A program made the translations under genes and the position numbers. The notes under the pieces are model-generated. The model was given only the letters and a program-made list of their open reading frames with translations, was not told the origin of the DNA and made no database searches. Positions 15,251 through 55,824 of a DNA stretch of 55,824 nt are shown piece by piece (position 1 is the first letter of the stretch; each line of letters opens with the position of its first letter). The stretch comes from a virus: positions 1 to 55,824 of the IMG/VR virus record IMGVR_UViG_3300038429_000537. The stretch is one strand, 5' to 3'.

Positions 15251-15252
15251 CC

Positions 15253-19720: not shown

Positions 19721-20631
19721 AGATCGTTTTTCTGGGCAACTTTTCGGTTCCTTTTTCCACGGAGTCACACCACCGTTGTACCTGGGAGAAATTAGGGCAC
19801 CAGGTGGTGGCACTGCAGGAGAACCGGGCGACTACGGATGAGGTAGTTAACGCGTGCCACGGTGCTCAGCTTTGCCAGCTAACCCACACCCACGGGTGGT
19901 CAACCCCGGGATCGTTCTCCTGTGAAGAGATGATGCGCCGGATTAAGGACCTGGGCGTCCCCACGATGTCCTACCACTTGGACTACTACCACGGGCTGAG
20001 CACCTGGGACAAGCGAGCGGACCGGGTAGGACAGGCCTGGGACTGGAAGACGGACTACTGGTTCTCGACGGACGGGGCTCACGACGATTGGTTCAAGGAC
20101 CGTGGTGTTAACCATCATTGGCTACCGCCCGGGGTGGTTGAGTATGGTTGTTATGAGGGAAACCGGCAACCGGGCTTGGCGGTCGACGTTGGTTTTGCGG
20201 GAAGCGCGAACTACCATCCGGAATATCCGTTTCGTGGTATAATGGTTGCAGCACTTCAGCGGCACTACGGACCTCGGTTTCGAGTCTTTCAGGGTTACCG
20301 CGAGCAGAACCTCAACAATTTGTACGCGTCGGTAAAGGTGATGGTGGGCGACCACTGTTTCGCCGGGCAACCCAAGTACTGGAGTGATCGTTTACCTGAG
20401 ACCTGTGGGCGGGGCGGATTCATCCTCTATCCGCGAACCGAGGGAATGGCCATTCCCACGGCCACGTACGAGCCGCAAAACGTGGCTGACCTGATTGCGA
20501 AGATTGATTACTACCTAGCCCACGAGACCGAGCGTGAAGAGATTCGGAAGCGCTGCTTTGAGTACGTTAAGGCCCACGATACCTATACTCATCGGTTGCA
20601 AGAGGTTCTTCAGGTGATGGAACTTGCATGA
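19717..20631 (+). CDS. GT-B glycosyltransferase, CgeB-like
   Basis: 304 residues; ATG 19717 overlaps the previous stop. N-terminal MKIVFLGNFSVPFSTE and a later VDVGFAGSANYHPEYPFRG are typical of CgeB/DUF3880-type GT-B proteins, and RLPETCGRGGFILYPRTEGM is the donor-binding segment. The C-terminal helix (REEIRKRCFEYVKAHDTYTHRL) matches the end of that family. Likely part of the same glycan assembly. Confidence 0.75.
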   Translation: MKIVFLGNFSVPFSTESHHRCTWEKLGHQVVALQENRATTDEVVNACHGAQLCQLTHTHGWSTPGSFSCEEMMRRIKDLGVPTMSYHLDYYHGLSTWDKRADRVGQAWDWKTDYWFSTDGAHDDWFKDRGVNHHWLPPGVVEYGCYEGNRQPGLAVDVGFAGSANYHPEYPFRGIMVAALQRHYGPRFRVFQGYREQNLNNLYASVKVMVGDHCFAGQPKYWSDRLPETCGRGGFILYPRTEGMAIPTATYEPQNVADLIAKIDYYLAHETEREEIRKRCFEYVKAHDTYTHRLQEVLQVMELA

Positions 20632-21398
20632 AAATTTCGATTTGTATACCGGTGATGGGGATTTCCAGTGCTAAGGTGCTGTGTAGTGCACTGCACTCGA
20701 TCCTCTTGCAAGAATACAATGACGTGGAGCTCATACTGCAGGACGGTGATCCGGAACGCTCGATCGTAAGTGACTCACACGTTGACCTGCTTCTTAGCTT
20801 GTTTGACTTTAAGTACGCGGTGGGTCGTGACGGAGGCATTTTTGACGCAGTTAATAAATGCCTTCAACAATCGACCGGCAACATTCTGTACTTCATGTGC
20901 TCCGATGATCTCTTGTGCCCAGGGGCTTTAACGGCAGTGAATGCGGCTTTTGAGGCAGAGCGCTTCGGTGGTCCTTATTGGTTATATGGCCAGACGGTTT
21001 CGGCCGACGTTACCGGTAAGACGTTGGGAATTGACGGCGCGCCGACGACCTACGAGCAGCTTCTAGAGCGTAATTGCATCGGAGAGCCCGCGGTGTTCTG
21101 GAACCGGCAGCTGATGGAGCTAGCGGGAAAGTTTGACCTGCGGTACCGTCACGCGGCTGACTACGAGTTGTGGTTGCGATTTTGGGAACGGCGCGAACCG
21201 CTGTTCTTGGAGCAAACGTTGGGAATATTTCGGCACCACGCGGATCAGCATTCTAAAGTGAACGCTGCCGCGCTCGAAGTTGAAGCTAAGAAGATCTCAA
21301 CGCGGCACCAAAATTTTAGCGGTTTGATTGCCCGGGCGCACAACGTTCTCGCGCTACGACGATCTTATCCTGACGGAATTCCGGAGAGTGGGAACTAA
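20628..21398 (+). CDS. Family 2 glycosyltransferase
   Basis: 256 residues with a clear GT2 core: ISICIPVMGISSAKVLCSAL, then ELILQDGDPE, then a GRDGGIFDAVNKCLQQSTG segment, LYFMCSDDLL with the metal-binding acidic pair, and IGEPAVFWNRQL plus HAADYELWLRF for the acceptor side. No membrane anchor. It closes the + strand glycan cluster; the next gene, three bases on, is a tail adaptor. Confidence 0.88.
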   Translation: MKISICIPVMGISSAKVLCSALHSILLQEYNDVELILQDGDPERSIVSDSHVDLLLSLFDFKYAVGRDGGIFDAVNKCLQQSTGNILYFMCSDDLLCPGALTAVNAAFEAERFGGPYWLYGQTVSADVTGKTLGIDGAPTTYEQLLERNCIGEPAVFWNRQLMELAGKFDLRYRHAADYELWLRFWERREPLFLEQTLGIFRHHADQHSKVNAAALEVEAKKISTRHQNFSGLIARAHNVLALRRSYPDGIPESGN

Positions 21399-23142: not shown

Positions 23143-23867
23143 AAATTACCTGTATTTATTGCCTCTATGATCCGCGTGATCCTCAACAAATTCCTATGTA
23201 TGTAGGAAAGGGCTTGGCTAATCGGGCCCAGTCGCATTGGAAGTATTTCTTGCATACCGGAAAAACTGTAAATCCGCTTCTTTATACCTGGTTTGAGCAA
23301 CTTAAGTTAGAGGGTGTTGAACCTCATTGGAAATTTCTTGAAAAAGAAGTACTAATGAATAGATGGCAAGAAGCTGAAAAACTTTGGATTGGTTTATCTC
23401 GTGTGGTTAATCCTAAGTTATGTAATGTATCTTCTGGTGGAAATGCTTTTCATATTTCACATATTAGAGCCGTTGAACTGGGAAAAAAGTATGGAATGCT
23501 GGGCGGATGTCGTACTCATGAGCATGCGGTAAAAATGGGACAAATAGGTGGTAATCGTTCGAAAGAGTTATACCCTGAAATGGCGCGTCAATGTGGACTT
23601 AATCTAAATTCTCTCGCAGCGTTGGCAAAATCTCGCACACCTGAGCATCAAAAAGAAGCTAGCGACAAAGGTGGATGGGCACTTATGCATAAAAATAATC
23701 CGGGAAAAGCACGTGAGTTAGGACTTAAATATGGTCATCTTAGCCAAGAGTCAGGAAGACATACTCGTTGGCACGTTGCCCGTCATCAATTCAATCCCGA
23801 CTGTTCTCTGTGCCAGGCTAAGTTAAATCTTAAGCTAGATTTTTTCAGCGCCGAGGAGCAGCAGTAA
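23133..23867 (+). CDS. GIY-YIG homing endonuclease, free-standing
   Basis: 244 residues from GTG 23133 (GGGTGG upstream); GTG 23124 is possible. GIY-YIG signature: CIYCLYDPRDP ... MYVGKG, then Arg and the following helices. The C-terminus ends in HQFNPDCSLCQ, a Cys motif shared with the minus-strand endonuclease at 52831. The gene is visibly richer in A/T than its neighbours on both sides, a sign of recent transfer. It is placed between two coding genes without splitting either. Confidence 0.85.
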   Translation: MAIKITCIYCLYDPRDPQQIPMYVGKGLANRAQSHWKYFLHTGKTVNPLLYTWFEQLKLEGVEPHWKFLEKEVLMNRWQEAEKLWIGLSRVVNPKLCNVSSGGNAFHISHIRAVELGKKYGMLGGCRTHEHAVKMGQIGGNRSKELYPEMARQCGLNLNSLAALAKSRTPEHQKEASDKGGWALMHKNNPGKARELGLKYGHLSQESGRHTRWHVARHQFNPDCSLCQAKLNLKLDFFSAEEQQ

Positions 23868-24691
23868 TGCTCTCTGTCGTAATTACAAGTTGCCACGACG
23901 ACAAAGCTTGCTACTTAACGGCCTTCGCCGTCGCCTGCCAGCTCGAACAACTAGCGGCGCCGCACGAGATCATCATCGTAGCCGACGGCGGGACGGAAGT
24001 TAAGTGGGAAAATCAAGGCTTTCGCTGCCTCCGCGGTAACTTCGGCTCACCGCAGGCTTCACGCGACGCGGGCATTCGGGTAGCGCGCTACGCTGACGTT
24101 CTCGTCCTGGAGTCGCACGTGGTGGTTGACGACGTACCGAAACTTTTATTGGAGCACCAGTACCTACGCGCAGCCCTAACCTTCTGTTCACGTCGGGCCG
24201 AAGGCCCGGAGATGTTCGACGTCTACGGAGCGACCACGGACTGGGATGGAAGTCTCTGGTACAAGCGGCTGCTGTATGAACCTTGTAGCGATAAGCCGTA
24301 CCGGGTGAGCCAGTTCGGCAACTCGTGTTTCATCGTGAACCGGGAGTGGTACCTGAGTTCGGGCGGGTATACCAACCTGATGACCGGTTGGGGTGGTGAA
24401 GAACCGTTCTTGTGTCTGAAAGCTTGGATGACGGGCCGTGAGTGTTGGCTGGTGCCAACCGTCGCGCACTACCACTACCTCTCACCTGGGGCGCACGGTG
24501 GCGAGATCTTAGGCCAGAGTGAGAGTTACAAGCGAAACTTTCAGATTCTTGGTTACGTTATGGACGGTCGACCGATGCCGAACGTGACGCCGGAAATTAA
24601 AGCCGAGCGGCAAAAAATGTTGGATGGACGTTTTGCCGGAAGCACTGAGCGGTTACGGGCGTACTTTCAACGAGAGGGAGTGGTGAGCTAA
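23867..24691 (+). CDS. GT2/GT27-like glycosyltransferase in the tail module
   Basis: 274 residues; ATG overlaps the endonuclease stop (TAATG). GT-A features: LSVVITSCHDDKACYLTAF, HEIIIVADGGTE, SPQASRDAGIRVARYADVLV, and GGYTNLMTGWGGEEPFLCLKAW, the acceptor motif of galactosyl/GalNAc-type transferases. The usual acidic metal site is reduced to LVLESHVVVDD. Its location next to the tail fibre genes suggests it may modify a virion protein or belongs with the main glycan cluster. Confidence 0.78.
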   Translation: MLSVVITSCHDDKACYLTAFAVACQLEQLAAPHEIIIVADGGTEVKWENQGFRCLRGNFGSPQASRDAGIRVARYADVLVLESHVVVDDVPKLLLEHQYLRAALTFCSRRAEGPEMFDVYGATTDWDGSLWYKRLLYEPCSDKPYRVSQFGNSCFIVNREWYLSSGGYTNLMTGWGGEEPFLCLKAWMTGRECWLVPTVAHYHYLSPGAHGGEILGQSESYKRNFQILGYVMDGRPMPNVTPEIKAERQKMLDGRFAGSTERLRAYFQREGVVS

Positions 24692-42545: not shown

Positions 42546-42748
42546 AGGCTCCTCCACTCCGTCGGGCCGTCACCCACGCCTCGGACGCACTCTACGAGGT
42601 GCAGTTTCTCGAGGTCCTCGAGTCGGGCGGTGATGACCACCCGCAACACCTCGGGAAATCGCTCTAGGAGTTGACCCTGGATTTGACCGGGGGTTAGCGC
42701 ATTAGGCTCGGCCGCGCGAAGCACGTCGAGGATGTCAAGGTAGTTCAT
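42542..42748 (-). CDS. Small winged-helix-like protein (68 aa)
   Basis: ATGA overlap with the recombinase stop. The sequence LDILDVLRAAEPNALTPGQIQGQLLERFP ... VITARLEDLEKLHLVECVRG has the alternation of a winged helix (helix, helix, recognition helix, short wing). Probably a DNA-binding regulator; paired in the operon with the HTH gene at 42366. It resembles in style the 43461 protein. Confidence 0.55.
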   Translation of the reverse strand: MNYLDILDVLRAAEPNALTPGQIQGQLLERFPEVLRVVITARLEDLEKLHLVECVRGVGDGPTEWRSL

Positions 42749-43362
42749 TTCTGTCCTCTCTCCGTTCGGATAGCCCTCACCCGGTGGTTCAACTCGTAAG
42801 CCTTGCCGTAACTAATCCCCAGTGCCTTAGCAGCCTTGGCGACCGAGCCGTCGTGTGCGTCGACCGCTTGTCGGACCGTCTCAGCCATCACTTGGCAGGC
42901 GGGTCGGCCTAGCTTTTTGCCCTTCGCCACAGCGTTCCGCAGCCCGGCGCGGACGCGCTCAACGATGATCTCCCGCTCCATTTCGGCGCAGGCACCCAGG
43001 ATGGTAAAGACCAGCTTGCCGGCTGGGGTGGAGGTGTCGACCTGCTCGGTCATCGAAACGAAGGCGATGCCCAGGCCCTTAAAGAACTCCAACGCCTGTG
43101 CCAGGTGAATCGTCGACCGGGCGAAACGGTCAAAGCGCCAAACCATCACGACGTCGAACCGGTGAGCCGCGGCGTCGGCCATCAGCCGGTCGAGCTCGGG
43201 GCGGTGCGACTTAGTGCCGGAGATCCCAGTGTCAACGTAAGTGTCAACGATTCGCCACTCGCGTTGCTGACAGTCTCGTCGCATGTCTCGGAGTTGTACC
43301 TCCGGGTCCTGTCCGTGGTTTTGGGTTGATACCCTGGCGTAAAGTGCGACGCGTTTCAGCAT
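42745..43362 (-). CDS. Serine recombinase (resolvase/invertase type)
   Basis: 205 residues. ATG complement(43362) is chosen because the codon track upstream only adds TTG-ACC. YARVST holds the catalytic Ser12 and Arg10; DVVMVWRFDRFARS gives the active-site arginines; EMEREIIVERVRAGL is the long dimer helix; GSVAKAAKALGISYGKAYEL is the C-terminal HTH. The size and architecture are of small resolvases/invertases, which act on nearby res/inversion sites. Candidate site lies just upstream (43363-43460). Confidence 0.88.
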   Translation of the reverse strand: MLKRVALYARVSTQNHGQDPEVQLRDMRRDCQQREWRIVDTYVDTGISGTKSHRPELDRLMADAAAHRFDVVMVWRFDRFARSTIHLAQALEFFKGLGIAFVSMTEQVDTSTPAGKLVFTILGACAEMEREIIVERVRAGLRNAVAKGKKLGRPACQVMAETVRQAVDAHDGSVAKAAKALGISYGKAYELNHRVRAIRTERGQK

Positions 43363-43460
43363 GGTCAAATTCTACACCGGTTCACTCTTTATGTAAATAG
43401 TACTTTAGTACTGGATTTGAAGACAGCAATTCGGTACCAAGGTACTGGTACCGGACGGTC
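43363..43460 (-). promoter_or_regulatory. Recombinase promoter/possible res site
   Basis: The 98 bases between the recombinase and the next gene hold AGTACT-TT-AGTACT (43399-43412) and GGTACC-AA-GGTACT-GGTACC (43433-43452), a cluster of GTAC-centred dyads, as well as A/T-rich TTTACATAAAG on the minus strand that could be a -10 region. They could be subsites for the recombinase or operators. Related TAGTAC dyad occurs at 39907-39926. Confidence 0.4.
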
Positions 43461-43661: not shown

Positions 43662-44005
43662 CACTCCCTCCCGTGGGCCAAACCGAGGCCCTGTAAAACG
43701 TAGGTGTCGTCACCACAGCGAAACGCCACTTGAAAGACTCGTCCCGTTCGTAGGTTGAACTGCCGGCAGAGCATGTAGTCACCGGGGGCTAACGGTGCTT
43801 GGGACGTCGGTCCTTCCAGTGGCTTGAGGCTGAAGAAAACCGTGGCCTTCGGCTCGACCACCTTCTGCCCGTTCTCCAGTCGCTGCACCTGCATCACGAC
43901 CTGCGGGCCGTATTCGGTTTGCTCCTGGCTGAGGGCGGCACCGACGAGGATGAGACCCAGTTCGACCGCGATGAACAACAACCCGAGTAAGATTTTACGC
44001 TTCAA
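43661..44005 (-). CDS. Small exported or membrane-anchored protein (114 aa)
   Basis: TTG complement(44005) is chosen because AAGGAGG stands at good spacing; upstream ATG/other codons lie inside the nuclease gene. N-terminus MKRKILLGLLFIAVELGLILVGAALS is a signal peptide or anchor. The rest is beta-rich (PQVVMQVQRLENGQKVVEPKAT, DTYVLQGLG) with two Cys. Envelope-located; function unknown. Confidence 0.55.
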   Translation of the reverse strand: MKRKILLGLLFIAVELGLILVGAALSQEQTEYGPQVVMQVQRLENGQKVVEPKATVFFSLKPLEGPTSQAPLAPGDYMLCRQFNLRTGRVFQVAFRCGDDTYVLQGLGLAHGRE

Positions 44006-44438
44006 AGTATTCCTCCTTACGTTCGACCAACTCAACGAGACGTTTAATTACCGGGTCAAAATAATCCAGGTAAGAGGCTGAATTGAAGAAGATGTTGAGG
44101 TTGAGGTCCTTTCGTCTTAGGCAGTTACTTATAACTTGCGGACTGTAAACTCCTAACTCCGATGAATCTTCATCAACCACGACATAAATACAGTGAACTT
44201 GTCGCTCCAACAACTGGCAAGTAGCGAGTTGTACCTTGTCAAAGTGCTTCCGCAGAGAGGACGGAGTCTCGTGAGCCTTTAACAGCTTAACCTCAACCCA
44301 AATGGTCTTGCGGTTATGGTTGACCACCAGGTCGGGAATGCCAGTGGTCATGTAATCCTGCAGCTTGAAAATCACAGCTGTCGGTAGCTGCTTTTGCAAC
44401 TCGGTCTTAATCTTCGTGACGGCGTCAGCTTCTCTCAC
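43995..44438 (-). CDS. VRR-NUC/PD-(D/E)xK nuclease
   Basis: 147 residues from GTG complement(44438), with GGAGGAGAA upstream and GTGA overlap. Residues 33-51 contain GIPDLVV (Asp36) and WVEVKL (Glu49, Lys51), the PD...ExK core of VRR-NUC-type Holliday-junction or flap nucleases. Such enzymes work with phage replication and recombination. The C-terminal half is A/T rich and divergent. The 3' end overlaps the next gene by 11 bases. Confidence 0.75.
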   Translation of the reverse strand: MREADAVTKIKTELQKQLPTAVIFKLQDYMTTGIPDLVVNHNRKTIWVEVKLLKAHETPSSLRKHFDKVQLATCQLLERQVHCIYVVVDEDSSELGVYSPQVISNCLRRKDLNLNIFFNSASYLDYFDPVIKRLVELVERKEEYFEA

Positions 44439-45329: not shown

Positions 45330-47195
45330 TTAGTGCGCCTCGCTCCAATTTTTTCCCACGCCCGTCTTCCACATGATCGGTGCCAGTAGTTCGATCGTCT
45401 GCTCGTTCAGCAGTTGGTCCCAAGCCTTCAGCGCTTCAGCATCCGGCAAGCAGCCGTTAAACTCGTCGTGAATGGTGTTGCGGATGATCAACCCCAACCG
45501 CTTTCGCGCGCGGTAGGTCTCCAACAGCTTGATCTTCATCGCGTCGGCCGCGCCACCCTGGAGCACGGCGTTCAAGGCTGAATAGTGCCGAGTATCCTCG
45601 GCCGTGTAGCGTCGCCGCCGACCCATAAAGGTCCGCACGTAACCGATTCGTAGCGCCTGGTCCTCGGCTAGCTTTAACAGTCGCTTAGCCTCGGGAAACT
45701 CGCGATCGTACTGGTCGTTGATGCGCTTGCCTTCCGCTTCGGCTACCTTGCACATCCACGCAACCTTCTTATACCCACCGCCGTATGTTTTACAGAACGT
45801 CACGTTCTTCGCGAAATCGCGGATCAGGCCTGTCCACTCGACCATCAACCGGTGAAAGTCTACCCAAGGATCAGCCGCGTAAGCCTTCGCCAGCCGCGTC
45901 ATGCCCAACATCGCGGCGTGATGGGCCAAAAACCGCAGTTCGATCTGTGAGGCGTCGGCGCTGGCCCACACCCGGCCCGGTGGGGGAATGAAGAGTTCCC
46001 GCACGTCCCACCGCTGCAGTAAGAGAGGCTGCTTCTCTCGCTTACTGACCTGTTGAATGTTGATGCCGATGCCGTTCTTATCCTTGCTGGAGCTGTACCG
46101 CCCGGTGATCGTACCGTACTCGTCACCTCGGAGCTGGTGGAGCTGGTAGGTGATCTTGCCGTCGGGCGCGACCTTCTCCAGGTACGGATCGAGGTACTTC
46201 GCCTTCAACGATGCGAGTTGCCGACCCTCTAGAGCTAGCTGAACTGCTGGATTGTCGACAATCCAGCAGTTACCAGAATCCTGTCGTACCCAGTGTCCGG
46301 CGATCGGCTCCAGGGCCTCCTCGGCGAAGGATTCGTTGCCCGACTCGGTCGTGAAGCCCGTGTGTTGCAGCCCGAGGTGGCGGAACAGCTTCGCCATGTC
46401 GTTTGCCGAGGTGGGCTTTATTCGCAACCCGGTTAGTTCGTACAGCCGCATGACCCGTTGGTTGTACTCCTCGGTGACCTCAGCCCGCCACTTAATCAGT
46501 TTCGGTACGTCGAGGTAGGCACCGGAGCGCTGCATCGCTGCGGTGCAGTACACGAGGTTGTCCTCGAGGTCCTGAACGTCTCCGAGATCCTCGGCCGTGA
46601 TTTTGGGGGTGTACGACTCGTTGATCAACCACGTCAGCTCGGCGTCTTCGATGGCGACCGGCGCGGCTTGCGCTGCCGTCATCTGGTGAATCGTCGCGTG
46701 GTCCACGTCCTGCATCTCGTAGTTGAGTTCTTCCTGGGCCAAGAGACGCAGGTTGAGACGATAACGATGATCGTTGAGCAGCGCTGCCGCGTGGAAAACG
46801 TCGCGGAAGCTACAGTCCTGCTCCTCGAGGTCAACGCCAAATTTGAGAGCCGTGTCAATTTCGAATTTGGCGTTGGCCACGATGAGTTGCTTGCTTCGTA
46901 GTTCGCAGCGTAGCCACTCGCGTACGTTTGCTTCCGGGTAATTGCCCCCACCCGGGTGGCGGATCGGCACGTACTGCTTTCGGCCCGACGGCAACCGGAA
47001 GGACAGACCGACGAGGCTACGCTCTTCCATCCGCTTTTCAACTGTGGTCTCAGTGTCGAAGGCCAAACTTTCGACGTTGCCCAGCTCGGGCAATGCCGAA
47101 AGAGAGTTGCCTATTGCCGGCGCGACGACCGGGTTCACGTTGAATTGTAAATTTAGGGAATTACATACTTCGCAATTGAAAGATTTTTCAAACAT
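45330..47195 (-). CDS. Family A DNA polymerase with 3'-5' exonuclease
   Basis: 621 residues. AAGGAGATAA precedes ATG. A short A/T-rich N-terminal extension carries CEVC. Exonuclease motif I is LAFDTET (Asp46/47 region), motif II NAKFEIDTA. Polymerase motif A is Asp414 in DASQIELR, motif B Arg459-x3-Lys463-x3-Phe467-x3-Tyr471-Gly, motif C HDE (576-578). Phe467 sits where Phe in Pol I disfavours dideoxynucleotides. No 5' nuclease domain. It is the replicative polymerase of the phage; primase and helicase are outside the window. Confidence 0.9.
   Translation of the reverse strand: MFEKSFNCEVCNSLNLQFNVNPVVAPAIGNSLSALPELGNVESLAFDTETTVEKRMEERSLVGLSFRLPSGRKQYVPIRHPGGGNYPEANVREWLRCELRSKQLIVANAKFEIDTALKFGVDLEEQDCSFRDVFHAAALLNDHRYRLNLRLLAQEELNYEMQDVDHATIHQMTAAQAAPVAIEDAELTWLINESYTPKITAEDLGDVQDLEDNLVYCTAAMQRSGAYLDVPKLIKWRAEVTEEYNQRVMRLYELTGLRIKPTSANDMAKLFRHLGLQHTGFTTESGNESFAEEALEPIAGHWVRQDSGNCWIVDNPAVQLALEGRQLASLKAKYLDPYLEKVAPDGKITYQLHQLRGDEYGTITGRYSSSKDKNGIGINIQQVSKREKQPLLLQRWDVRELFIPPPGRVWASADASQIELRFLAHHAAMLGMTRLAKAYAADPWVDFHRLMVEWTGLIRDFAKNVTFCKTYGGGYKKVAWMCKVAEAEGKRINDQYDREFPEAKRLLKLAEDQALRIGYVRTFMGRRRRYTAEDTRHYSALNAVLQGGAADAMKIKLLETYRARKRLGLIIRNTIHDEFNGCLPDAEALKAWDQLLNEQTIELLAPIMWKTGVGKNWSEAH
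46242..46271 (-). repeat. Perfect 30-bp palindrome inside the polymerase gene
   Basis: Left arm AACTGCTGGATTGTC (46242-46256) is followed without spacer by its exact reverse complement (46257-46271). It encodes NCWIVDNPAV, in the stretch between exonuclease and polymerase motif A. Perfect, spacer-free palindromes this long are unusual in coding DNA. Confidence 0.85.
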
Positions 47196-47441: not shown

Positions 47442-47615
47442 AAATCCATTTTTCTTCTTTCATGTCATCCTCATCTGGTTCTTTTGAAGTTAAGAAATTT
47501 TCAACATTAGCTAAATGAGAATCGATACTAATTGGTCCGGGAGCACAGAGTTTAATAAGAAACGGGCAAAACCACTTTGAATAATTGTAGTGTCACGCCA
47601 AAATCGAGTCTTCAT
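47428..47615 (-). pseudogene. Small gene apparently split by a -1 frame change
   Basis: ATG complement(47615) overlaps the hydroxymethylase stop (ATGA) with GGAG upstream, and begins MKTRFWRD. That frame soon gives a poor 34-residue product. The neighbouring frame continues HYNYSKWFCPFLIKLCAPGP ... EEKWIYENL, which looks like a real protein and ends inside the start of the next gene. It has no start codon of its own. A one-base deletion, sequencing error or programmed frameshift would join them. Confidence 0.4.
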
Positions 47616-48487
47616 AGCGTAGCTCCGATCAACAAGCGTCGAGCCTCGGACCAAGTCTTCGCGCCTAACACCGCGGCGTACACGCTCCAGGGATGGCGTA
47701 AGTATTCAGGTGGATACTTACCCGGGTTCTCGAGGTAGTCGGTCAAGCAGTACGGATTTTCGATTGACAGGTTCGGGTTCGGCATGTAGGGCAGCGACGG
47801 ACTCGTGATCCCAGGATAGTGTTGCGGGTCAGCCAACACGTTGTGTGCTTTTTCGAAGTCCGTCGCGTAGAGATGGCTGCTACCCAGGTTGAATTGAAGG
47901 TAACCCGGTGTCAGACCGAGCACGCCGGTTAGCCCATTTGCCAGTTGTGCGAAGGTGAAGCAGTCGTACGGCAGGCCCAGCCACACGTCCGATGACCTCA
48001 TCGTCACGATACAATGAAGCTGCATATCCCTACAAATAAATTGTAGGGATATGGTGCAGGGAATGTCCTTCGACGGCGCCGGACACGGCGTCCAGATCGT
48101 TGCTACCCCCTGGCGGGTAAATTCATCCTTCGCAATCGAGTCAACCACGTACTGCCACTGCTTGCTCAACCGCGGCCCGTAGGCGCCGGCTAACGTCTTC
48201 CCGTCGTCGGAGAACCGACCCATCTGCCCGTTGTACGGTGTCAGCGTGGCGAGGTCCTCGCGACCTAGGGCTATCCAGAGCCACTCGGCAACTAAAAATC
48301 TGTAGTTCAGATTCCTAAGGGGGTGGTAGAGGATGTTGTTTCTCAGATCCTGAACGCGCAGCGTGACCCCGGTGATCTCGTGGGTCAACAACCCCCGCGG
48401 CTGGGGCTTGAACTCGGGTTCGTTCAAGAGTTGCTCCAGAAGTTTCAACCACACCTCGTTGATCGACCGTCCTTCGATGGTCAGCAT
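47612..48487 (-). CDS. Thymidylate-synthase homologue, predicted dCMP C5-hydroxymethylase
   Basis: 291 residues, TGATG overlap with the kinase gene. The TS fold is clear: nucleophile Cys144 in DIPCTISLQF, Arg164 in MRSSD, phosphate and folate region YGPRLSKQW, and HLY (His205, Tyr207). The base-specifying Asn of thymidylate synthases (LGxPFN) is Asp175 here (LGLPYD), as in T4 dCMP hydroxymethylase, where Asp reads cytosine. So it likely acts on dCMP, making hydroxymethyl- or methyl-dCMP. Which product forms cannot be told from sequence. Confidence 0.75.
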   Translation of the reverse strand: MLTIEGRSINEVWLKLLEQLLNEPEFKPQPRGLLTHEITGVTLRVQDLRNNILYHPLRNLNYRFLVAEWLWIALGREDLATLTPYNGQMGRFSDDGKTLAGAYGPRLSKQWQYVVDSIAKDEFTRQGVATIWTPCPAPSKDIPCTISLQFICRDMQLHCIVTMRSSDVWLGLPYDCFTFAQLANGLTGVLGLTPGYLQFNLGSSHLYATDFEKAHNVLADPQHYPGITSPSLPYMPNPNLSIENPYCLTDYLENPGKYPPEYLRHPWSVYAAVLGAKTWSEARRLLIGATL

Positions 48488-49407
48488 CAGTTCGCACCTC
48501 TGAACCGCTGCAACAGTTCCACGTACTTGTCACGACTCTTGGACTTAAAGCGCTTAAAAAAAGCAGGATGTGGGATTTCTAACCGAGGTACTCCTAGATT
48601 GTGGCAACGATTGGAGGCTACCTTGCCTAGAGCGATAATAGTCTGTGCTGGGTTATTTCGGTAAATAGCTCGAATGTCGTTGTAAGTAGCATCCATCGTC
48701 ATGATGTTGGCAAAGGCCAGTTCCTCTTCCTGGTAGCCGGCCTCCCAGAGACACTCGTTTAAGAAGTGACTAGATTTCTGGTCGGAGTAAAACGCTAGGT
48801 CCGCACCGCAACTGTCCTTTCCGTCGGCGCGCTCACCGACGAGGAGGAACCTTGCACGGGGACTGCCGATCACGCCGGGCCAGCACTTTCGGCTGCACAA
48901 CACCTCAGGAAAAGGATGCTTTTCCTCGAGGTGCTGTGGTAACAGGCTGGTCCGGTAGTCGAAGTAGACAACGTCGCGCAGGGTGAAGAACTCGGCAAAA
49001 AGAGTACGAAAGTTGCTAGCAACCTTTCGTAATCTTTCCGTGTTGTCAACGTACTCCCGCGCTTGTCGCTTCTTCCAGTTCTCTTCGATGGCCGCGTCGT
49101 CCGTGTCACAGAACACGAACTTCGTACCAAGCGAAAACAGCAGGCGGTTCAGCAGTTTCATCTGCTCGACGGAAATCTTCGAGCCCGTTCGCATCACCGG
49201 CCCGTAGGCCATCTCACCGAGGTGCAGGCGATCGAACACGACATTCGCGCCTCGGGCGTTCAGAACACACTGGGTGTAGTACTCAAATATGTTGACACCC
49301 TCGGCCGGCACACCTTCGTGGCGGTACTCGAACCCGCGCTTCTCGAGGGCGCGCGCTAGCGTAGTTTTGCCCGTCCCGTCGGGACCTTCAACGACTATGC
49401 AGCTCAT
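48487..49407 (-). CDS. dNMP kinase fused to a uracil-DNA-glycosylase-like domain
   Basis: 306 residues; ATG complement(49407) gives ATGA overlap. Residues 1-about 150 are a thymidylate-kinase-like P-loop domain (VEGPDGTGKTT, residues 7-16; then FDRLHLGE). Residues about 155-306 resemble the uracil-DNA-glycosylase superfamily: FLLVGERADGKDSCG in place of motif A, FANIMTMD, TIIALGKVA and IPHPAFFK in place of the HPS motif. Adjacent to the dCMP hydroxymethylase, it could phosphorylate the modified nucleotide. The glycosylase-like half may bind, check or process bases. Two hairpins lie in its coding DNA. Confidence 0.75.
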   Translation of the reverse strand: MSCIVVEGPDGTGKTTLARALEKRGFEYRHEGVPAEGVNIFEYYTQCVLNARGANVVFDRLHLGEMAYGPVMRTGSKISVEQMKLLNRLLFSLGTKFVFCDTDDAAIEENWKKRQAREYVDNTERLRKVASNFRTLFAEFFTLRDVVYFDYRTSLLPQHLEEKHPFPEVLCSRKCWPGVIGSPRARFLLVGERADGKDSCGADLAFYSDQKSSHFLNECLWEAGYQEEELAFANIMTMDATYNDIRAIYRNNPAQTIIALGKVASNRCHNLGVPRLEIPHPAFFKRFKSKSRDKYVELLQRFRGAN

Positions 49408-50582
49408 GACTTGGGCCTTTCTCGCCACTTTTCAGGCGTCCGTAGGTCAGCTGTTTCATTGGGTTGAATCGTGATGGTTTGTAATCGTCCTGACGTTACG
49501 TCATTCACGACGTCAACATCACAAGACTGGGGTCTTGCGATGCCAAAGACATTTGCCGAGATCTCCCGCAGTATCCACCGTGCCACCGGCGGACAGACAC
49601 CCTTCGAGAGCAATACAAAGGTCAGCCGCGGCTTGTGGTACCGGTAATCCGCCGGAAACCCCATGATTCGTTTGTAGTCCGCGTAGCCTAGCTGCCGCTT
49701 GCCTAACCACCACCAGCAGGGGCCTAGAAGGACTGGTGCCAGTCCGTTCGGGTTCAGCACGTGCAGCGCGCCGGAGAGGAAGTTGCCACCCACGATGTAA
49801 TCGTGCAGCTTGCCGAACGGCGGCCAACCCTTCGTATGCTCGTACCCGTGAGCCTCGGCTAAGATGTGGATTATGTTTCCGTAGGTAGTAGTGCCACTGA
49901 GAAGTTCCCGTAGGGACTTCTCTGTGTAACCCAATTCCTTAAGCAAATCTAATTGCTTCCCCCACCGCGTCGTGTGAGTGATGTCCAGCTCACCCTCCGC
50001 CGCGTCCACGCCTAACACGTCATTCAAGTACCTAACGTTGTGGTTTAGGACGAAGGTAAACTCTCGCTTTCGCCCCGGCTGCTGCTTCACGAAGATCGCC
50101 CAGAACCGCCGCCGCCACTGGGGCACGCCGAAACTGGCCGCGTTCTGGAGAACGCGGTACAAGTCGTAGCCGTGGGCGGCGGCGTAGAAGTCGTGCACGT
50201 GCCGGGCACCCTCCAGCGCGCCCGGGACGGACTCGATGGCTACGGCCTCGGGCCGGCGGGGCATCACGTGTTCCAGCAGCCGGGTGGTACAGGCGAAGGC
50301 CTCGGCTCCCGGGCCGCGTTTGCTGGCACTGCCTCGATTCTGGGAAGAGAAGGCCGCACAGGGCGGGTGCGCTATTACGATCGCGCCCTTCAAGTCCATG
50401 TCCAAATCCCAGTCCGCCAGTTCGGACCGATAGTTGAGGTGCGGGAAGTTCAAGCGTTGTGAATCCAGGCCAAAGTTGTGGTCCTCGCAACTCGCTAGGA
50501 TAGGGTGCTCCTCCTGCGTAGCAGCTAAGGTGATGCTGCCACCGTATGAATTGATGATCAATACAGGTGGCTTAGTTACCAT
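49404..50582 (-). CDS. C5-cytosine DNA methyltransferase-like protein
   Basis: 392 residues from ATG complement(50582); ATG 50624 is possible but overlaps more of the upstream gene. Divergent SAM loop IINSYGGSITLA, catalytic PPC with Cys75, Glu117 in ESV (for ENV), QWRRR (155-159) for motif VIII, and GVCPPVARWI for motif X. The target-recognition region is long. It is ATGA-coupled to the kinase-glycosylase gene. It may be an ordinary protective methylase or act on an already modified cytosine. Confidence 0.82.
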   Translation of the reverse strand: MVTKPPVLIINSYGGSITLAATQEEHPILASCEDHNFGLDSQRLNFPHLNYRSELADWDLDMDLKGAIVIAHPPCAAFSSQNRGSASKRGPGAEAFACTTRLLEHVMPRRPEAVAIESVPGALEGARHVHDFYAAAHGYDLYRVLQNAASFGVPQWRRRFWAIFVKQQPGRKREFTFVLNHNVRYLNDVLGVDAAEGELDITHTTRWGKQLDLLKELGYTEKSLRELLSGTTTYGNIIHILAEAHGYEHTKGWPPFGKLHDYIVGGNFLSGALHVLNPNGLAPVLLGPCWWWLGKRQLGYADYKRIMGFPADYRYHKPRLTFVLLSKGVCPPVARWILREISANVFGIARPQSCDVDVVNDVTSGRLQTITIQPNETADLRTPEKWRERPKS

Positions 50583-50986
50583 AGGCTGTTGAACGCCCCC
50601 TGGTTGGCTAGCCGTAGCATGCAAGCCTGGAACTTCGGACCGTGGTCGTCAAACTCCTGGCCCCACGTGGCGATGTGACACTGCTCGTGCAGCATGTTCA
50701 TCTTCAGGTGAGTGTCGGCTTGGTTGTACTTCGGGTTGAACTCAGTGATAAACCGTCCGTCGTGCATTCGTGTGATTGCCATGTTTGAACGACCTTGCAC
50801 GTCAACGGCTGGTCCGTAGCGCAAAATGACGTCCTTCGGTAACTCGTCGCCGAACCACCACCCGTTGTATTGGTCGTAGATGGTCTGAAGGTAATCATCC
50901 CGGTCCTTCGGTAGCAACCGCTCAACGAGGGCAGAATAAACCGCGGCCAATAAAATTATGAGTACGATCTTCTGCCAGGTCTTCAT
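50576..50986 (-). CDS. Exported or membrane-anchored HExxH zincin-like protein
   Basis: 136 residues; ATGA overlap with the gene before. N-terminal signal/anchor KTWQKIVLIILLAAVYSALV. HEQCH (100-104) plus His115 ten residues later forms a SprT-like zinc site, with the GxKF residues after it. The N-terminal hydrophobic segment suggests activity at or outside the membrane, unlike cytoplasmic SprT. Could be a peptidase for cell-envelope proteins; the family link is moderate. Confidence 0.6.
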   Translation of the reverse strand: MKTWQKIVLIILLAAVYSALVERLLPKDRDDYLQTIYDQYNGWWFGDELPKDVILRYGPAVDVQGRSNMAITRMHDGRFITEFNPKYNQADTHLKMNMLHEQCHIATWGQEFDDHGPKFQACMLRLANQGAFNSLW

Positions 50987-51354
50987 GTCTTGGTGAACCT
51001 CGCGCGGACGGCGGCCTTCTGCTCGGGCGTGAGCTGCCGCTTGGTTCGGATTTTAGCCAAACGGAGAATTAGTTTCACTAATTCTGCGTTTTCCGGGTCA
51101 AAGCTGAGATAGCCATCTACCTCGCAGGTGATGTAGGGCTTCGCGCCCTTCTCAATTAACTTTTTCCGCACGTTGTTCCACTTGCCCACGGTGAGGAAGT
51201 TGAAGTAAACGTAAAATTCTCCGTCCGCCTCGAAGACGTTGTGGTTGTCCTCGAGGTGCTTGGCCCACTTCACTCGCCCGGCGACGATGGGATCGTCACA
51301 ACTATCTTTCCGAATCTTAACCTTATACCGTTCGGCAAACTCTGTTAAAGTCAT
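50983..51354 (-). CDS. Hypothetical protein (123 aa)
   Basis: ATG complement(51354) overlaps the previous TGA. Sequence MTLTEFAERYKVKIRKDSCDD ... GEFYVYFNFLTVGKWNNVRKKLIEKG ... KRQLTPEQKAAVRARF; basic, mixed alpha/beta, with a helical basic C-terminus that could contact nucleic acid. A near-perfect 13-bp inverted repeat lies at 51061-51089 (one mismatch). Function unknown. Confidence 0.6.
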   Translation of the reverse strand: MTLTEFAERYKVKIRKDSCDDPIVAGRVKWAKHLEDNHNVFEADGEFYVYFNFLTVGKWNNVRKKLIEKGAKPYITCEVDGYLSFDPENAELVKLILRLAKIRTKRQLTPEQKAAVRARFTKT

Positions 51355-51602
51355 TGGATCTCCGTGACCGGGATGTGGACGATCGCGCCGGCAGCAACGG
51401 ACTTCTCGTGCATCTCGCACAACAGTTGAAACAACCGGGCATCTCCGGCGTCGACGCAGTTGCCGAAGTTGACGACGAAGGACGGAACGGCGGCGAACAT
51501 GTAGCCCGCCACGATCACCTTGTGACGGTTCGCCACCCGCAGCAGCATCTCGGCGGCTGACTGAACCTCAAGCGGAATGCCGTGATTTTCTAGAACGTCC
51601 AC
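51351..51602 (-). CDS. Hypothetical protein (83 aa)
   Basis: GTG complement(51602) is chosen because GGGGAGG lies just upstream, inside the end of the previous gene. The chain (GIPLEVQSAAEMLLRVANRHKVIVAGYMFAAVPSFV...) is a mixed alpha/beta sequence with two short helices. It is coupled to the next gene by ATGA. Function unknown. Confidence 0.55.
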   Translation of the reverse strand: MDVLENHGIPLEVQSAAEMLLRVANRHKVIVAGYMFAAVPSFVVNFGNCVDAGDARLFQLLCEMHEKSVAAGAIVHIPVTEIQ

Positions 51603-52834
51603 TGATAACCTCCCCACTCACCCTTACCCGCTAGGGCTTGCTCCAACGGATCGAAGTTCGGCGTGCTCTTCTCGCGCAGCTCCTCGACGTAGCCCTTGGC
51701 TTCCGACCACGGAATTTCACCCCAGTCTTCGAACTGGCTGATGCGAGCGGGGTGATTATGACAGAGATATCTATTATCTCTGTCATAGTGAAACCTCCCG
51801 AATGAAACGGGCCGTGGTAGCGCACCCGCCACGACGTACTCCCGCAACTTGCCGGTGGCGAAGCCCGCCTCCAGAGCGATCATGGGCCCCTGCGAAGCCC
51901 GTTGTAAGATGCCTTGGACCTCATCGTGTTTCACGCAGCCCTTCCAGTGGGGGTTGTTACGGACCACCACGTGGCCCGTAGCCACCTGGTGTTGGTCAGC
52001 CTCAACCGGCGACGCAAAGTTTTTCGTCGGTTGGCACGTCGCGCAGTAGCACCACCCGTGGCCGTAAACCTCGTAGGCCGATCTACATCGGCCTAAAACC
52101 GCGTCCCACGTCTTGGCTCGCTCCGGCCCGTATACCCGCAGGTCGTGAAAGTGGCCGTGGGCGATCACCACCACTCCCTGCCGAGGTTCGTCAAGCGGTG
52201 CTAGGGGCATCCCGAAAGTCCACCAATTCTCGCAGGCGGCGTAGACCTCTTCGCGCCGCATCTTCCGCTCGCGGGTCTCCCAGTAATTCACTCTGCTACG
52301 TTGCGAGAGGACCGCCGCTGGCAGCGTGTACGGCCAGTAGTGGTTCTCGTGTTCCCGGGGCAGGTTGCGCGGGTCGTTGATGATTACTACCCTGCGAAGA
52401 TGTAAATCTTCGCATGCTTTAAGACAGGGTAGGTTGGTCGTGATCGCCGTCCGTAACGGACTCGTGCCCCAGGGATTGCACGGGTTCGAGTGCGAGGGCT
52501 GCTGGCCCGCGACGTTGACGACTACGTCGGGGCACCATTGCTTTAACTCCGTTAAAGCAATGTTGATCCTGAAGACGTACTCCTCAGCCTCGGTCGTCTC
52601 GTACGGCGTGCCGGCGAAATCAACGCCAAAGCTGGGTATGCCCGAGAAAGTTCCGGCACCACAGAGAGTTTTTCCATTCAATCCGTAGGGCGCGGGGCCG
52701 AAGAGACACACGTCGTGCCCCGACTGTTTTAGGTAGCGCAGCACGCCTAGAGCGTCTTGATTTCCGGCAGTTGGAGACGCACCGTGATTATCTTCATAAA
52801 GTACTGTGCCCGTTCTACACAGCGCAATTCTCAT
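51590..52834 (-). CDS. GT-B-like glycosyltransferase with zinc-knuckle insert
   Basis: 414 residues; ATG complement(52834) overlaps the endonuclease stop. N-terminal Rossmann half (MRIALCRTGTVLYEDNHGASPTAGN ... LKQSGHDVCLFGPAPYG), with VVVNVAGQQ and RRVVIINDPRN. C-terminal half has VVIAHGHFHDLRVYGPERAKT and RASQGPMIALEAGFATGKLREYVVAGA, typical of donor-binding GT-B loops. Between them lies WCYCATC ... HQVATGH, a Cys-x2-Cys...His-x5-His zinc site. Four strong inverted repeats lie in the coding DNA. DNA as acceptor is a hypothesis from the operon and the zinc site. Confidence 0.6.
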   Translation of the reverse strand: MRIALCRTGTVLYEDNHGASPTAGNQDALGVLRYLKQSGHDVCLFGPAPYGLNGKTLCGAGTFSGIPSFGVDFAGTPYETTEAEEYVFRINIALTELKQWCPDVVVNVAGQQPSHSNPCNPWGTSPLRTAITTNLPCLKACEDLHLRRVVIINDPRNLPREHENHYWPYTLPAAVLSQRSRVNYWETRERKMRREEVYAACENWWTFGMPLAPLDEPRQGVVVIAHGHFHDLRVYGPERAKTWDAVLGRCRSAYEVYGHGWCYCATCQPTKNFASPVEADQHQVATGHVVVRNNPHWKGCVKHDEVQGILQRASQGPMIALEAGFATGKLREYVVAGALPRPVSFGRFHYDRDNRYLCHNHPARISQFEDWGEIPWSEAKGYVEELREKSTPNFDPLEQALAGKGEWGGYQWTF

Positions 52835-53406
52835 GAAATCTCCTGGCAAAGCTTACAGTTAGGATTCTTAATTCCTTTGTTAAGATGAAATCGTTTGTGA
52901 TTTCCCGCTAAGGAAGCTTTTCTTTGATGCTCTTTATCTTGGTGAGCTTTGATTAAAACTTTTCTACGCGCCTCGTCAAATGATTTTGAAGTAGTGGCTG
53001 TTATATGCCCACCTTTTGCCCTAGTTTCATAAGTTGTAAACGGGATGCTAGCCTTTCCAGATCGTACCTTATCCTCATGCGAAGCATTCTTCCCGCCGAT
53101 TCGTCCTGCGGCAGCACGATCACATCCACCTGCTGGGTCGCGGTTTAAACCTCCTAGCTTAACTCGAGTGCATAAAAAGTCAATGAAAAAATTTTCACGC
53201 TCATACAGTTCTTGGACATCCTCATAGAAAAAATTTTCTATCTCTCGTGGAAAAGGAGGGTTTTCGAATGAGCGTAGCCACTTAGCAATTCTTGTTTTTG
53301 CTTTTAAGTGGCAATGATGCCTGCGTACTAAGTTATTTGTGGACCCGACATACACCGGACGGCCGCTATTCGGATCGACATACGCATATATTGTTCCTAG
53401 AAGCAC
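52831..53406 (-). CDS. GIY-YIG homing endonuclease
   Basis: 191 residues from GTG complement(53406), one base overlap with the HAD gene stop. IYAYVDPNSGRPVYVGST is the GIY-YIG core (GTIYAY...YVG), followed by NNLVRRHHCH with the conserved Arg. The middle is a Gly/Lys region, and the C-terminus has NPNCKLCQ, shared with the + strand enzyme at 23133. A/T-rich composition relative to neighbours. It sits in the operon without breaking a gene. Confidence 0.82.
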   Translation of the reverse strand: MLLGTIYAYVDPNSGRPVYVGSTNNLVRRHHCHLKAKTRIAKWLRSFENPPFPREIENFFYEDVQELYERENFFIDFLCTRVKLGGLNRDPAGGCDRAAAGRIGGKNASHEDKVRSGKASIPFTTYETRAKGGHITATTSKSFDEARRKVLIKAHQDKEHQRKASLAGNHKRFHLNKGIKNPNCKLCQEIS

Positions 53407-53771
53407 TAGACGATCCCTTCAGTGTTCTCAAAACCTTTGTCCCGCTGCACGTTGAAAGAAAGGGCCATCGGCGTGTTCGGGTCGTAAGGCTTCGTGTCAT
53501 TAATCAAGTAACGTCGCCCACTAGTGAGCCCCATGACGAGTTGGTGGTAGTACAAGCCTGCAGCCTCGAGCTGCGCCACGACCTTCGCGCGGATGCACTC
53601 GGGCCGGCCGGTGGTGATGATGATCAGCGCGCCGGAGTTCCACCACCGAACCATTTTCTCTGGCACACCGGGTAGTACGTGCATCGGGTCATCCCACGGT
53701 GGAGCCTGGTGTTTGATCAACGTTCCATCTAAGTCGACGAAGATCGTCGCGTGGTGGTGACTCTGCATCAT
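53406..53771 (-). CDS. HAD-family phosphatase
   Basis: 121 residues from ATG complement(53771), ATGA overlap; the longer frame from 53912 overlaps the kinase gene. Motif I FVDLDGTLIKH has the two catalytic Asp residues, ITTGRPE is motif II, and LINDTKPYD supplies the late acidic/Lys region. It is of the small sugar-phosphate or nucleotide phosphatase kind. With its two neighbours it could complete the activation of a sugar or alcohol. Confidence 0.8.
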   Translation of the reverse strand: MMQSHHHATIFVDLDGTLIKHQAPPWDDPMHVLPGVPEKMVRWWNSGALIIITTGRPECIRAKVVAQLEAAGLYYHQLVMGLTSGRRYLINDTKPYDPNTPMALSFNVQRDKGFENTEGIV

Positions 53772-54460
53772 GGTTTCAGTTCCTCGAGAACGACGAACCC
53801 CGACGCGATGTCCAACTGCGGCCAGTGAGGCAAGAGACGTACCCAGTGAGTCACGAGGAAAGCCCAATCCGTCGCGTCGGCCCAGTCGGGCCACGTATTG
53901 GGACGCTCCCATGGATAAGGCACTTTGATACTTAAAAATTCAACTTGCGGACCCCAACGTTCCTCCCACCGCATGACCACACTTTGGAGCAACTTCCCTC
54001 GGTCCAGGGCCGGGGTGACCATTTCCCGAGGATAGCCTGGGTCGATCAACACCACGTTACCGGTCGGCTCGATGACGACGTTCTCCAGGGTCAGGTCAGC
54101 GTGCACCAACCGCGCCCGTGGCAGCTCGACCGCTTGGATGACGTTCAACGCGTCGCGCACAACCTCCACAGCCTCAGGTTTCAACCCCGCTGTTCTCTCG
54201 GCCACATACTCGCAGTAACGGAGCTTTTCGGCCATCGTCAGCCGACCGTGTTGGTACACGTCCCACACCAACTCCATCGTCCGCAAGATCTCTGGCACGT
54301 CCGCCACTGTGGCTTGCCGGCCCGTCACGTAGCGATAAAGGTAGTGCTCACCGTACTGGCGCACGAACCGAGGAATGTATTGCCACGGAGCGTGAATGTA
54401 GAAGTCCGGTATCCGACCCGGCTTGATTACCACGTCAGTATCGATTATCTGTCCTTGCAC
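53768..54460 (-). CDS. APH/choline-kinase-type small-molecule kinase
   Basis: 230 residues from GTG complement(54460), GGAGGAA upstream, overlapping the nucleotidyltransferase end by 16 bases. RLVHADLTLENVVI (Brenner-type His-x-Asp...Asn) followed by VLIDPG is the catalytic and metal site of the aminoglycoside/choline kinase fold. The N-terminal lobe is reduced, lacking an obvious Gly loop. It probably phosphorylates a sugar, amino alcohol or similar hydroxyl compound, before transfer by the neighbouring nucleotidyltransferase. Confidence 0.75.
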   Translation of the reverse strand: MQGQIIDTDVVIKPGRIPDFYIHAPWQYIPRFVRQYGEHYLYRYVTGRQATVADVPEILRTMELVWDVYQHGRLTMAEKLRYCEYVAERTAGLKPEAVEVVRDALNVIQAVELPRARLVHADLTLENVVIEPTGNVVLIDPGYPREMVTPALDRGKLLQSVVMRWEERWGPQVEFLSIKVPYPWERPNTWPDWADATDWAFLVTHWVRLLPHWPQLDIASGFVVLEELKP

Positions 54461-55059
54461 CCGTTCCTCCAGTAGGCGGCGTAGGTCTCCGGCACGCCGA
54501 CGTCCCACCACCCGTCACCGGGTCGGATCACTGGGGTCAGTCCCGAGAAGTGATCCCAACCCTCACTCGAAATCGGTTCGTTGCAATCCTCGGTCAGAAA
54601 CCACGGTGTCGACAGCGCGTGCGTACCCGGTCCGGTGCGCGTTAGGTGGTTGTGCTTGCCCAACCGCACGAGGTGCGGCATCCGCCACGCCGGTACTTGC
54701 CGAACCACGGCCCAACAGTAACTCGAGTCAGTAGGTAGGAGCTCGCCTTGCGGGTAGACGTTGTCGGCCATCACAATCAAGGATGATTGGCCATCGCGAT
54801 TGACTAAATTCAACGCGTCGCCTACTCCGGTCGGCTCGGGTTGGTAAATAAAATCGAGGTCAATTTTGTCCCCGTAGACCTTGTCAATCACGTCCACGAT
54901 CACTGAGCTTGGTGGGGTGACCACCGCGACGTGGTCGACTTCGTGCCGGAGCAGGTAGTCCATCCCGGAGAAGCAGACGGGCCGCAAGTCGCGCATCGGC
55001 AGCAGCGGCTTGTTGGGCAACCGCGTGGCGGCGCCCCCAGCGAGTAAGATGCCGATCAT
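54445..55059 (-). CDS. NDP-sugar (or NDP-alcohol) nucleotidyltransferase
   Basis: 204 residues; ATG follows AAGGAGACCT. The signature LLAGGAATRLPNKPLLPM is the nucleotide-binding loop of sugar-1-phosphate nucleotidyltransferases; LIVMADNVYP has the metal-binding Asp; WWDVGVPETYAAY is the sugar-pocket motif. The family makes NDP-sugars or, in related forms, CDP-choline-like donors. With kinase and HAD phosphatase it forms a compact activation triad. It may supply the GT at 51590 or the + strand transferases. Confidence 0.83.
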   Translation of the reverse strand: MIGILLAGGAATRLPNKPLLPMRDLRPVCFSGMDYLLRHEVDHVAVVTPPSSVIVDVIDKVYGDKIDLDFIYQPEPTGVGDALNLVNRDGQSSLIVMADNVYPQGELLPTDSSYCWAVVRQVPAWRMPHLVRLGKHNHLTRTGPGTHALSTPWFLTEDCNEPISSEGWDHFSGLTPVIRPGDGWWDVGVPETYAAYWRNGCKDR

Positions 55060-55168: not shown

Positions 55169-55824
55169 TTAATATCTTTCCGCTTCTATGCGGGTAAGGA
55201 AAAAATGAATACCGCCCCCGCATTCCTGCCAGCGGTCTTCATTCCATTTGTCACATTTCACCGTTTCGCCCTTGCGGTACTTCGTGTTTCGGTCGTATCG
55301 CGAAATGCCTTCTTCCGCACCGATTACTTGGAGCACCAATGCTTCACTGGCGCGGCACTTGCGACCAGAAGCATTAGAGCGCTGTGCCTTGGCAGGAATT
55401 CGGAGACGGACTATTACGCCGTTCAAACACTTCTTCCAACCTTGAAAGCCTCCAGTTTCGGGCACGATGGTGGTTTGCGCAAGAGAGTATTCGGCTTCCT
55501 TGGCATCTTTGAGGTTCGCCCCGCTGAGGTTCGCCCCGCTGAGGTACGCCCCGCTGAGGTTCGCCCCGCCGAGGTTCGTCCCGCCGAGGTTCGCCCCGCC
55601 GAGGTTCGCCCTGCTGAGGTTCGCCCCGCCGAGGTCCGCCCCGCTGAGGTTCGCCCCGCTGAGGTACGCCCCGTCGAGGTACGCCTCGCTGAGGTTCGCC
55701 TCGCTGAGGTTCGTCCCGCTGAGGTACGCCCCGCTGAGGTTCGCCCCGCCGAGGTTCGCCCAGCTGAGGTACGCCCCGCTGAGGTCCGCCCCGCTGAGGT
55801 TACCCACGATCAGGATCGCCCAGT
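55169..55824 (-). CDS. Pentapeptide-repeat protein with DUF5758-like C-terminus, 5'-truncated at window end
   Basis: The frame stays open to the right edge, so the start is outside; GTG at complement(55807) is only an internal codon. At least 20 A(D/N)LSG-type pentapeptides form a right-handed beta-helix. The C-terminal about 95 residues ([41 protein letters not shown]) match DUF5758, often attached to such repeats in phages. Some relatives mimic DNA or bind gyrase; role here unknown. Confidence 0.8.
55516..55803 (-). repeat. Tandem 15-bp repeats coding the pentapeptides
   Basis: About nineteen near-identical 15-base units (GCTGAGGTTCGCCCC type on the + strand) run in register, each giving one pentapeptide. 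Uniform third positions suggest recent expansion by slippage or unequal exchange, so repeat number may vary between relatives. Confidence 0.85.

Follow-up and report, generated by a model that had tools for sequence, protein, structure and literature searches.

Gene organization of the locus

IMG/VR virus record IMGVR_UViG_3300038429_000537, a sequence from a virus of bacteria that is classed as linear and is possibly a fragment, was analysed over its full 55,824 bases (the window), with a minus-strand gene string at 47,612-55,059, probably a cytosine hypermodification operon, as the subject. The string is a single unit of 11 genes, in the order nucleotidyltransferase (NTP), phosphotransferase (APH), HAD phosphatase, GIY-YIG endonuclease-like gene, candidate glycosyltransferase (GT), two small genes, SprT-like gene, C5-cytosine methyltransferase homologue (MT5C), dNMP kinase fused to a UDG-like domain (KU) and thymidylate synthase homologue (TS). 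No intergenic gap was found across 55,059 to 47,612, and each junction overlaps by 1-67 nt when the longest open reading frames are taken. The genes for PolA and then VRR-NUC lie downstream (Table 1). A first-pass annotation of this DNA had proposed such an operon, and its observation was confirmed as a whole, every gene that it named being found in order, on the minus strand and overlapping; its list had omitted the GIY-YIG gene, the SprT-like gene and the two small genes.

Predicted enzymes of base modification

The best PDB match of the TS homologue is MilA, a CMP 5-hydroxymethylase (2e-26). Its Asp175 stands at the position of N177 in the E. coli enzyme and aligns with the Asp of T4 gp42 and of RB69 ORF048c, whereas the SPO1-type dUMP hydroxymethylase has Asn. 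Asp occupies this position in 89 of 91 aligned sequences, the window included, with the SPO1-type enzyme and one gap as the exceptions, and the catalytic Cys (C144) is present in all rows except one, which has a gap (90/91). Thr145, conserved like D167, takes the position of His147 in E. coli TS. In the MetaGPA study, TS positions 177 (Asp) and 147 were those that best separated genes on experimentally cytosine-modified virome contigs from the rest (PMC8670742). D167 is kept as in T4 while the RB69 enzyme has Asn there, so that a hydroxymethyl product is favoured over a hydroxy product; the Mosigvirus-type enzyme, of the RB69 kind, was reported as a 5-hydroxy-dCMP synthase (PMC13390438). These residues strongly suggest that the TS homologue converts dCMP to 5-hydroxymethyl-dCMP, and the dCMP hydroxymethylase that had been predicted does carry the cytosine-specificity Asp, like its T4 counterpart. 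The label of dUMP hydroxymethylase, given in the annotation of PW916 and others, was rejected because of the Asp at the specificity position. A TS profile gave 418 matches in IMG/VR, and nearly all retained loci carry the Asp.

The kinase-UDG fusion is real. An AlphaFold (AF2) model of KU, built from an alignment of 33 sequences, reached a mean pLDDT of 88.7, and both halves match by fold: residues 9-183 resemble the dNMP kinase YorR (3kb2) and thymidylate kinases (VIA Z 17.7, 162 residues, 3.4 A), while residues 175-313 resemble family-4 UDG/UdgX (4zby; VIA Z 13.6, 135 residues, 2.6 A). The sequence profile concurs (2axp, 1e-16; 1ui0, 3.8e-6), as does a Pfam/PHROG match to kinase plus the UDG superfamily (2e-4). 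The UDG motif residues (GE acid, Asn and HP..R), namely E199 (E/D), N241, H287 and R293, are conserved in 31-34 of 35 sequences. Since the four-Cys Fe-S cluster of family 4 is not conserved in the KU family, where several relatives are poor in Cys or lack it beyond residue 150, the C-terminal half is a UDG-superfamily domain and not a standard family-4 enzyme; its probable role would be to inspect or flip bases, or to clear out undesired ones such as U. Among 82 loci that bear the kinase, 46 have it in fused form, with AXL3 gp29, PW916 and phage G gp315 as examples. The fusion is a recurrent architecture in related phages, not specific to the window contig. No paper naming it was found in the open-access literature.

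The C5-methyltransferase homologue was likewise found with its catalytic residues kept. PPC89, E131, R171 and R173 (numbered from TTG 50624), belonging to motifs IV (PPC), VI (E-x-V) and VIII (RxR), are invariant in 25 sequences, and NSYxGS, with one invariant Gly, stands where the classical SAM motif I (DLFxGxGG) is expected. The enzyme probably acts on leftover unmodified C. Independent occurrence of the genes in relatives had been named as an argument against the operon; a scan with the MT5C family alone, although seeded with TS-linked sequences, spoke for linkage. It returned 23 contigs, of which 18 have a TS homologue on them as well, and the completeness of the remaining five records, 14-43 kb long, is not established.

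Predicted donor triad, candidate transferase and relatives

NTP, APH, HAD and GT stand beside the hydroxymethylase in two further contigs, L030 (IMGVR_UViG_3300037468_000341) and L034 (IMGVR_UViG_3300009167_000126), in gene orders unlike that of the window: KU-TS-APH-HAD-NTP-GT-dCMP deaminase-PolA-VRR-MT5C in the former and APH-HAD-NTP-x-GT-kinase-TS-dCMP deaminase-PolA-VRR-MT5C in the latter. TS, KU, MT5C, NTP, PolA and VRR were found common to the window and these contigs by tblastn, and APH and GT were matched at profile level; none of the window's plus-strand genes tested by tblastn, virion-glycan genes among them, was found on L030 or L034, the shared part being confined to the replication/modification module. 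In the TS tree, in which several nodes have low support, the three are not nearest neighbours.

All members of the predicted kinase-phosphatase-nucleotidyltransferase triad were found, with weak family scores and intact motifs. The top matches of the window NTP are RmlA-type structures; for the L030 NTP the best score is to NTP_transf_3, with IspD-like cytidylyltransferases scoring as well. APH aligned with a profile of the L030, L034, S-CBWM1 and RB69 kinases (hhalign E 3e-11), and its tblastn search among phage records for triad relatives returned S-CBWM1 only. The window HAD belongs to phrog_1238, which is also the family of RB69 ORF051c and S-CBWM1 gp10; because the HADs of L030 and L034 are of another, longer type, their homology with that of the window holds at superfamily level only.

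The candidate GT aligned with the GT of L030 and L034 over about 330 aa (hhalign P 1.4e-5), and the GT-B label rests on this alignment and on the Rossmann-like secondary structure of a poor model. Scans for further relatives returned only L030 and L034 among viral contigs and none among genome contigs. Where a GT-B-like protein with a zinc site had been proposed, the zinc-like motif was found, C269-x2-C272-x14-H287-x5-H293 (numbered from TTG 52,849), in a zinc-finger-like stretch specific to the window with no counterpart in L030 or L034, while the GT-B label found no family support in the libraries.

The best of the cultured relatives covered, Stenotrophomonas phage AXL3, encodes a TS of the window type and the kinase-UDG fusion, and also ThyX. 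Of 37 enzymes, two cut its DNA, TasI and Tru1I, both with A/T-only sites (PMC7504290), which is what cytosine (or guanine) modification predicts. This resistance supports the shared core of TS and kinase-UDG, not GT or the triad; neither GT nor NTP, APH and HAD was recognised in the part of the AXL3 record that was covered.

Two other loci touch on these genes. In Synechococcus phage S-CBWM1 (L096:4727-7441), a TAGT-HAD-NTP-APH block was observed, the TAGT gene being Pfam PF20691 (3.5e-10). No TS homologue was detected in the S-CBWM1 record, and the triad therefore does not need one; the block is a candidate separate DNA-modification module. The family phrog_14998 (about 340 aa, with a GT-B-like N-terminus; L014:7786-8796, L060:8410-9435 and 20 other loci) lies near the hydroxymethylase in 22 TS loci and never together with the triad; this mutual exclusion looks suggestive, although three triad contigs are too few for significance. 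The family is a candidate alternative final-step enzyme.

Coordinates and neighbouring features

The GIY-YIG gene has no homologue in L030 or L034 and is probably a mobile insertion that separates the donor genes from the transferase. The glycan gene set in the structural module probably serves a virion or surface glycan. The model with the marginally highest score for PolA was DpoZ, that of the aminoadenine polymerase, although well short of its cut-off, and among the genes scanned none resembling PurZ was noted.

Table 1. Genes of the operon and other features of the window
Feature	Position	Strand	Evidence and remarks
NTP, sugar-1-phosphate-type nucleotidyltransferase, 204 aa	54445..55059	-	GGAATRL...KPLLP; Pfam NTP_transferase 2e-4; RmlA structures 3e-4; homologues in L030/L034 neighbourhood
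APH, aminoglycoside/choline-kinase-type phosphotransferase	53768..54511	-	HADLTLEN and LIDPG motifs; Pfam APH 2.5e-3; probable start GTG 54,460, GGAGG upstream
HAD phosphatase, small	53406..53771	-	DLDGT motif; phrog_1238 5e-7; hhalign 9e-6
GIY-YIG endonuclease-like gene	52831..53406	-	Pfam GIY-YIG 3e-4
GT, candidate GT-B glycosyltransferase	51590..52834	-	hhalign to L030/L034 GT; same neighbourhood; better start ATG 52,834, AGGAGA upstream
Small gene	51351..51617	-	ORF, translationally coupled
Small gene, ATG 51354	50983..51354	-	ORF, ATGA overlap
SprT-like metalloprotease-type protein	50576..50986	-	Pfam SprT-like 1.2e-5
MT5C, C5-cytosine methyltransferase homologue	49404..50582	-	Pfam DNA_methylase 2e-11; PPC, ESV and RxR motifs; better start ATG 50,582
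KU, dNMP kinase fused to family-4 UDG/UdgX-like domain	48487..49428	-	AlphaFold model and profile matches
TS, predicted dCMP 5-hydroxymethylase	47612..48487	-	Pfam thymidylate synthase 6e-22; PHROG 4e-40
PolA-type DNA polymerase	45330..47195	-	NCBIfam PolA 1e-56; match in 66 of the loci searched
VRR-NUC nuclease	43995..44438	-	Conserved with PolA in module; homologues in L030, L034, L031, L033
Serine recombinase / DNA invertase-like gene	42745..43368	-	
Pentapeptide-repeat type ORF	55169..55822		15-bp unit repeated many times; truncated at contig end
Glycan gene set in structural module	11227..21398 and 23867..24691	+	GT4, B12-radical SAM, GT47/RXYLT1-like, FkbM methyltransferase, GT2s, two NAD-dependent epimerases, GT1

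Proposed pathway and alternatives

In the reading that is probably correct, 5-hydroxymethyl-dC is made and incorporated into DNA, after which it is glycosylated from an activated donor that the phage itself makes. The 5-hydroxymethyl-dCMP expected from the TS homologue would be phosphorylated by the kinase half of KU and then, through a host NDP kinase step, become available for insertion into DNA by the phage PolA. Following the RB69 precedent, APH would phosphorylate a sugar phosphate or a similar polyol phosphate, HAD would take off one phosphate, and the nucleotidyltransferase would yield an NDP-activated donor. In the final and weakest step, the GT-B-like protein may move the group onto the cytosine hydroxymethyl in DNA. 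Escape from restriction and from other DNA-targeting defences would be the benefit; any roles of the SprT-like protein and the two small genes would be presumptive. The earlier interpretation was supported in part: cytosine hypermodification has good support in the Asp at the specificity position, the conserved neighbourhood and the published restriction resistance of the cultured relative, whereas two of the points taken as unrecognised, the fusion and the donor pathway, have to be corrected.

Several results weigh against this pathway. The GT had no match in a profile search of Pfam, PHROGs, NCBIfam or PDB; its AlphaFold model, from three sequences, is poor (pLDDT 35), with Rossmann-like secondary structure; and an hhalign comparison with T4 beta-GT, RB69 ORF003c and phage G gp313, based on a shallow profile, detected no similarity. 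The full gene set was found in only three contigs, known from genes alone. In the window record, itself possibly a fragment, neither an A5P isomerase (SIS) nor homologues of the relatives' NTP-PPase (dCTPase-like) and dCMP deaminase genes were found.

An alternative that is unlikely, while keeping some weight, is that the hydroxymethylase, kinase-UDG and methyltransferase yield plain 5-hydroxymethylcytosine DNA, and that NTP, APH, HAD and the GT-like protein merely adjoin them and build a surface or virion glycan. The large glycan cluster of the structural module, with several GTs, two NAD epimerases, an FkbM methyltransferase and a B12-radical SAM gene, is in line with this, as is the PHROGs annotation of the HAD family as phosphoheptose-related. 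However, L030 and L034 keep NTP, APH, HAD and GT within the TS-PolA module, the window's glycan genes were not found on these contigs by tblastn, and the triad sits with DNA-modification genes in RB69 and S-CBWM1.

It is rather doubtful that the kinase-UDG fusion and the C5-methyltransferase are themselves working parts of the base chemistry, the UDG half, for instance, ridding DNA or the nucleotide pool of unmodified cytosine (or uracil) for complete replacement and the methyltransferase-fold enzyme acting on hydroxymethylcytosine, so that with the donor route an undescribed cytosine chemistry would result. A shade more doubtful is a non-glycosyl end group, in which the donor would be an activated polyol or alcohol phosphate of the CDP-choline or CDP-ribitol type and would be transferred to hydroxymethylcytosine by the GT-like protein. 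APH together with a MobA/RmlA-like NTP is also the logic of LicA-LicC in choline metabolism, and the preference of the L030 NTP for NTP_transf_3, with scores to IspD-like cytidylyltransferases, points the same way; yet the HAD phosphatase would suit a sugar-bisphosphate route better, and the window NTP is closest to RmlA-type structures.

It is improbable that the product is RB69-like, with 5-hydroxy-dC formed by a hydroxylating TS homologue and then bearing arabinose. The triad order is as in RB69, but TS048 of RB69 is without the Asp kept in the window (D167), searches of the loci in the window, L030 and L034 brought up no SIS isomerase, and the GT is not detectably related to ORF003c. Ordinary nucleotide metabolism, in which a thymidylate synthase and a TMK feed dTMP synthesis as the database annotation of relatives would have it, can hardly be upheld against the near-universal Asp at position 175 and against AXL3, which has ThyX as well and restriction-resistant DNA.

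A large phage family, seen in the TS-profile matches, probably has cytosine-replaced DNA and shares a conserved, apparently unnamed kinase-UDG fusion, with final-step enzymes that appear interchangeable. A dedicated donor route and an unfamiliar transferase together predict a new DNA sugar, of value both for the study of restriction escape and as a source of enzymes. With AXL3 in culture, the core is accessible to nucleoside mass spectrometry.

Comparison with known systems

Like the window, the T4 system for glucosyl-5-hydroxymethylcytosine (gp42, gp1 and alpha/beta-GT) has a dNMP kinase and a dCMP hydroxymethylase that carries the Asp specific for cytosine, and its last step is a GT-B-type transfer, as is proposed for the window. 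In contrast, T4 takes UDP-glucose from the host and has no donor genes, its cluster is without a kinase-UDG fusion and a C5-methyltransferase, its polymerase is of family B instead of PolA, and its beta-GT has no detectable relation to the window GT.

The arabinosyl-hydroxycytosine module of RB69/Mosigvirus (ORF045c-055c, ORF003c) shares with the window a TS homologue, a TMK-like kinase and the NTP-APH-HAD triad, in identical order and beside DNA-modification genes. Its cluster, comprising TMK, TS-like, HAD (051c), APH (052c), NTP (053c) and SIS isomerase (055c), was tied to arabinosylated cytosine in publications (PMC6024577, PMC13390438, PMC12838424). It is set apart by the SIS isomerase and by a TS variant for which 5-hydroxy-dCMP is the reported product; the relationship of its APH and NTP to those of the window is only distant, and between its arabinosyltransferase and the window GT no relation was detected.

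In the 5-carbamoyloxymethyl-dC phages of MetaGPA (PMC8670742), an Asp177-type TS homologue is also followed by a second enzyme acting on the hydroxyl, but that enzyme is a carbamoyltransferase, of which none was found in the window operon; their PRA-PH and dCMP deaminase neighbours occur in the window's relatives, not in the window. The AXL3 gp27-gp31 cassette, from a phage with restriction-resistant DNA, likewise has the D-type TS adjoining the kinase-UDG fusion, with a Class I SAM methyltransferase in place of the C5-methyltransferase.

The combination had been considered unrecognised. This no longer applies to the kinase-UDG fusion, which is widespread, or to the APH donor pathway, which has its counterpart in RB69/Mosigvirus, but it stands for the whole set: hydroxymethylase, kinase-UDG, intact C5-methyltransferase, unfamiliar GT and separate NTP, APH and HAD were found described together nowhere in the searches made. 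Given the RB69 and S-CBWM1 counterparts, the principle of donor synthesis is of a known kind, of which the window has a distinct, non-T4 form that comes with a GT of its own. In conclusion, the operon is a variation on the known theme of cytosine hypermodification with a phage-made donor and is not categorically new.

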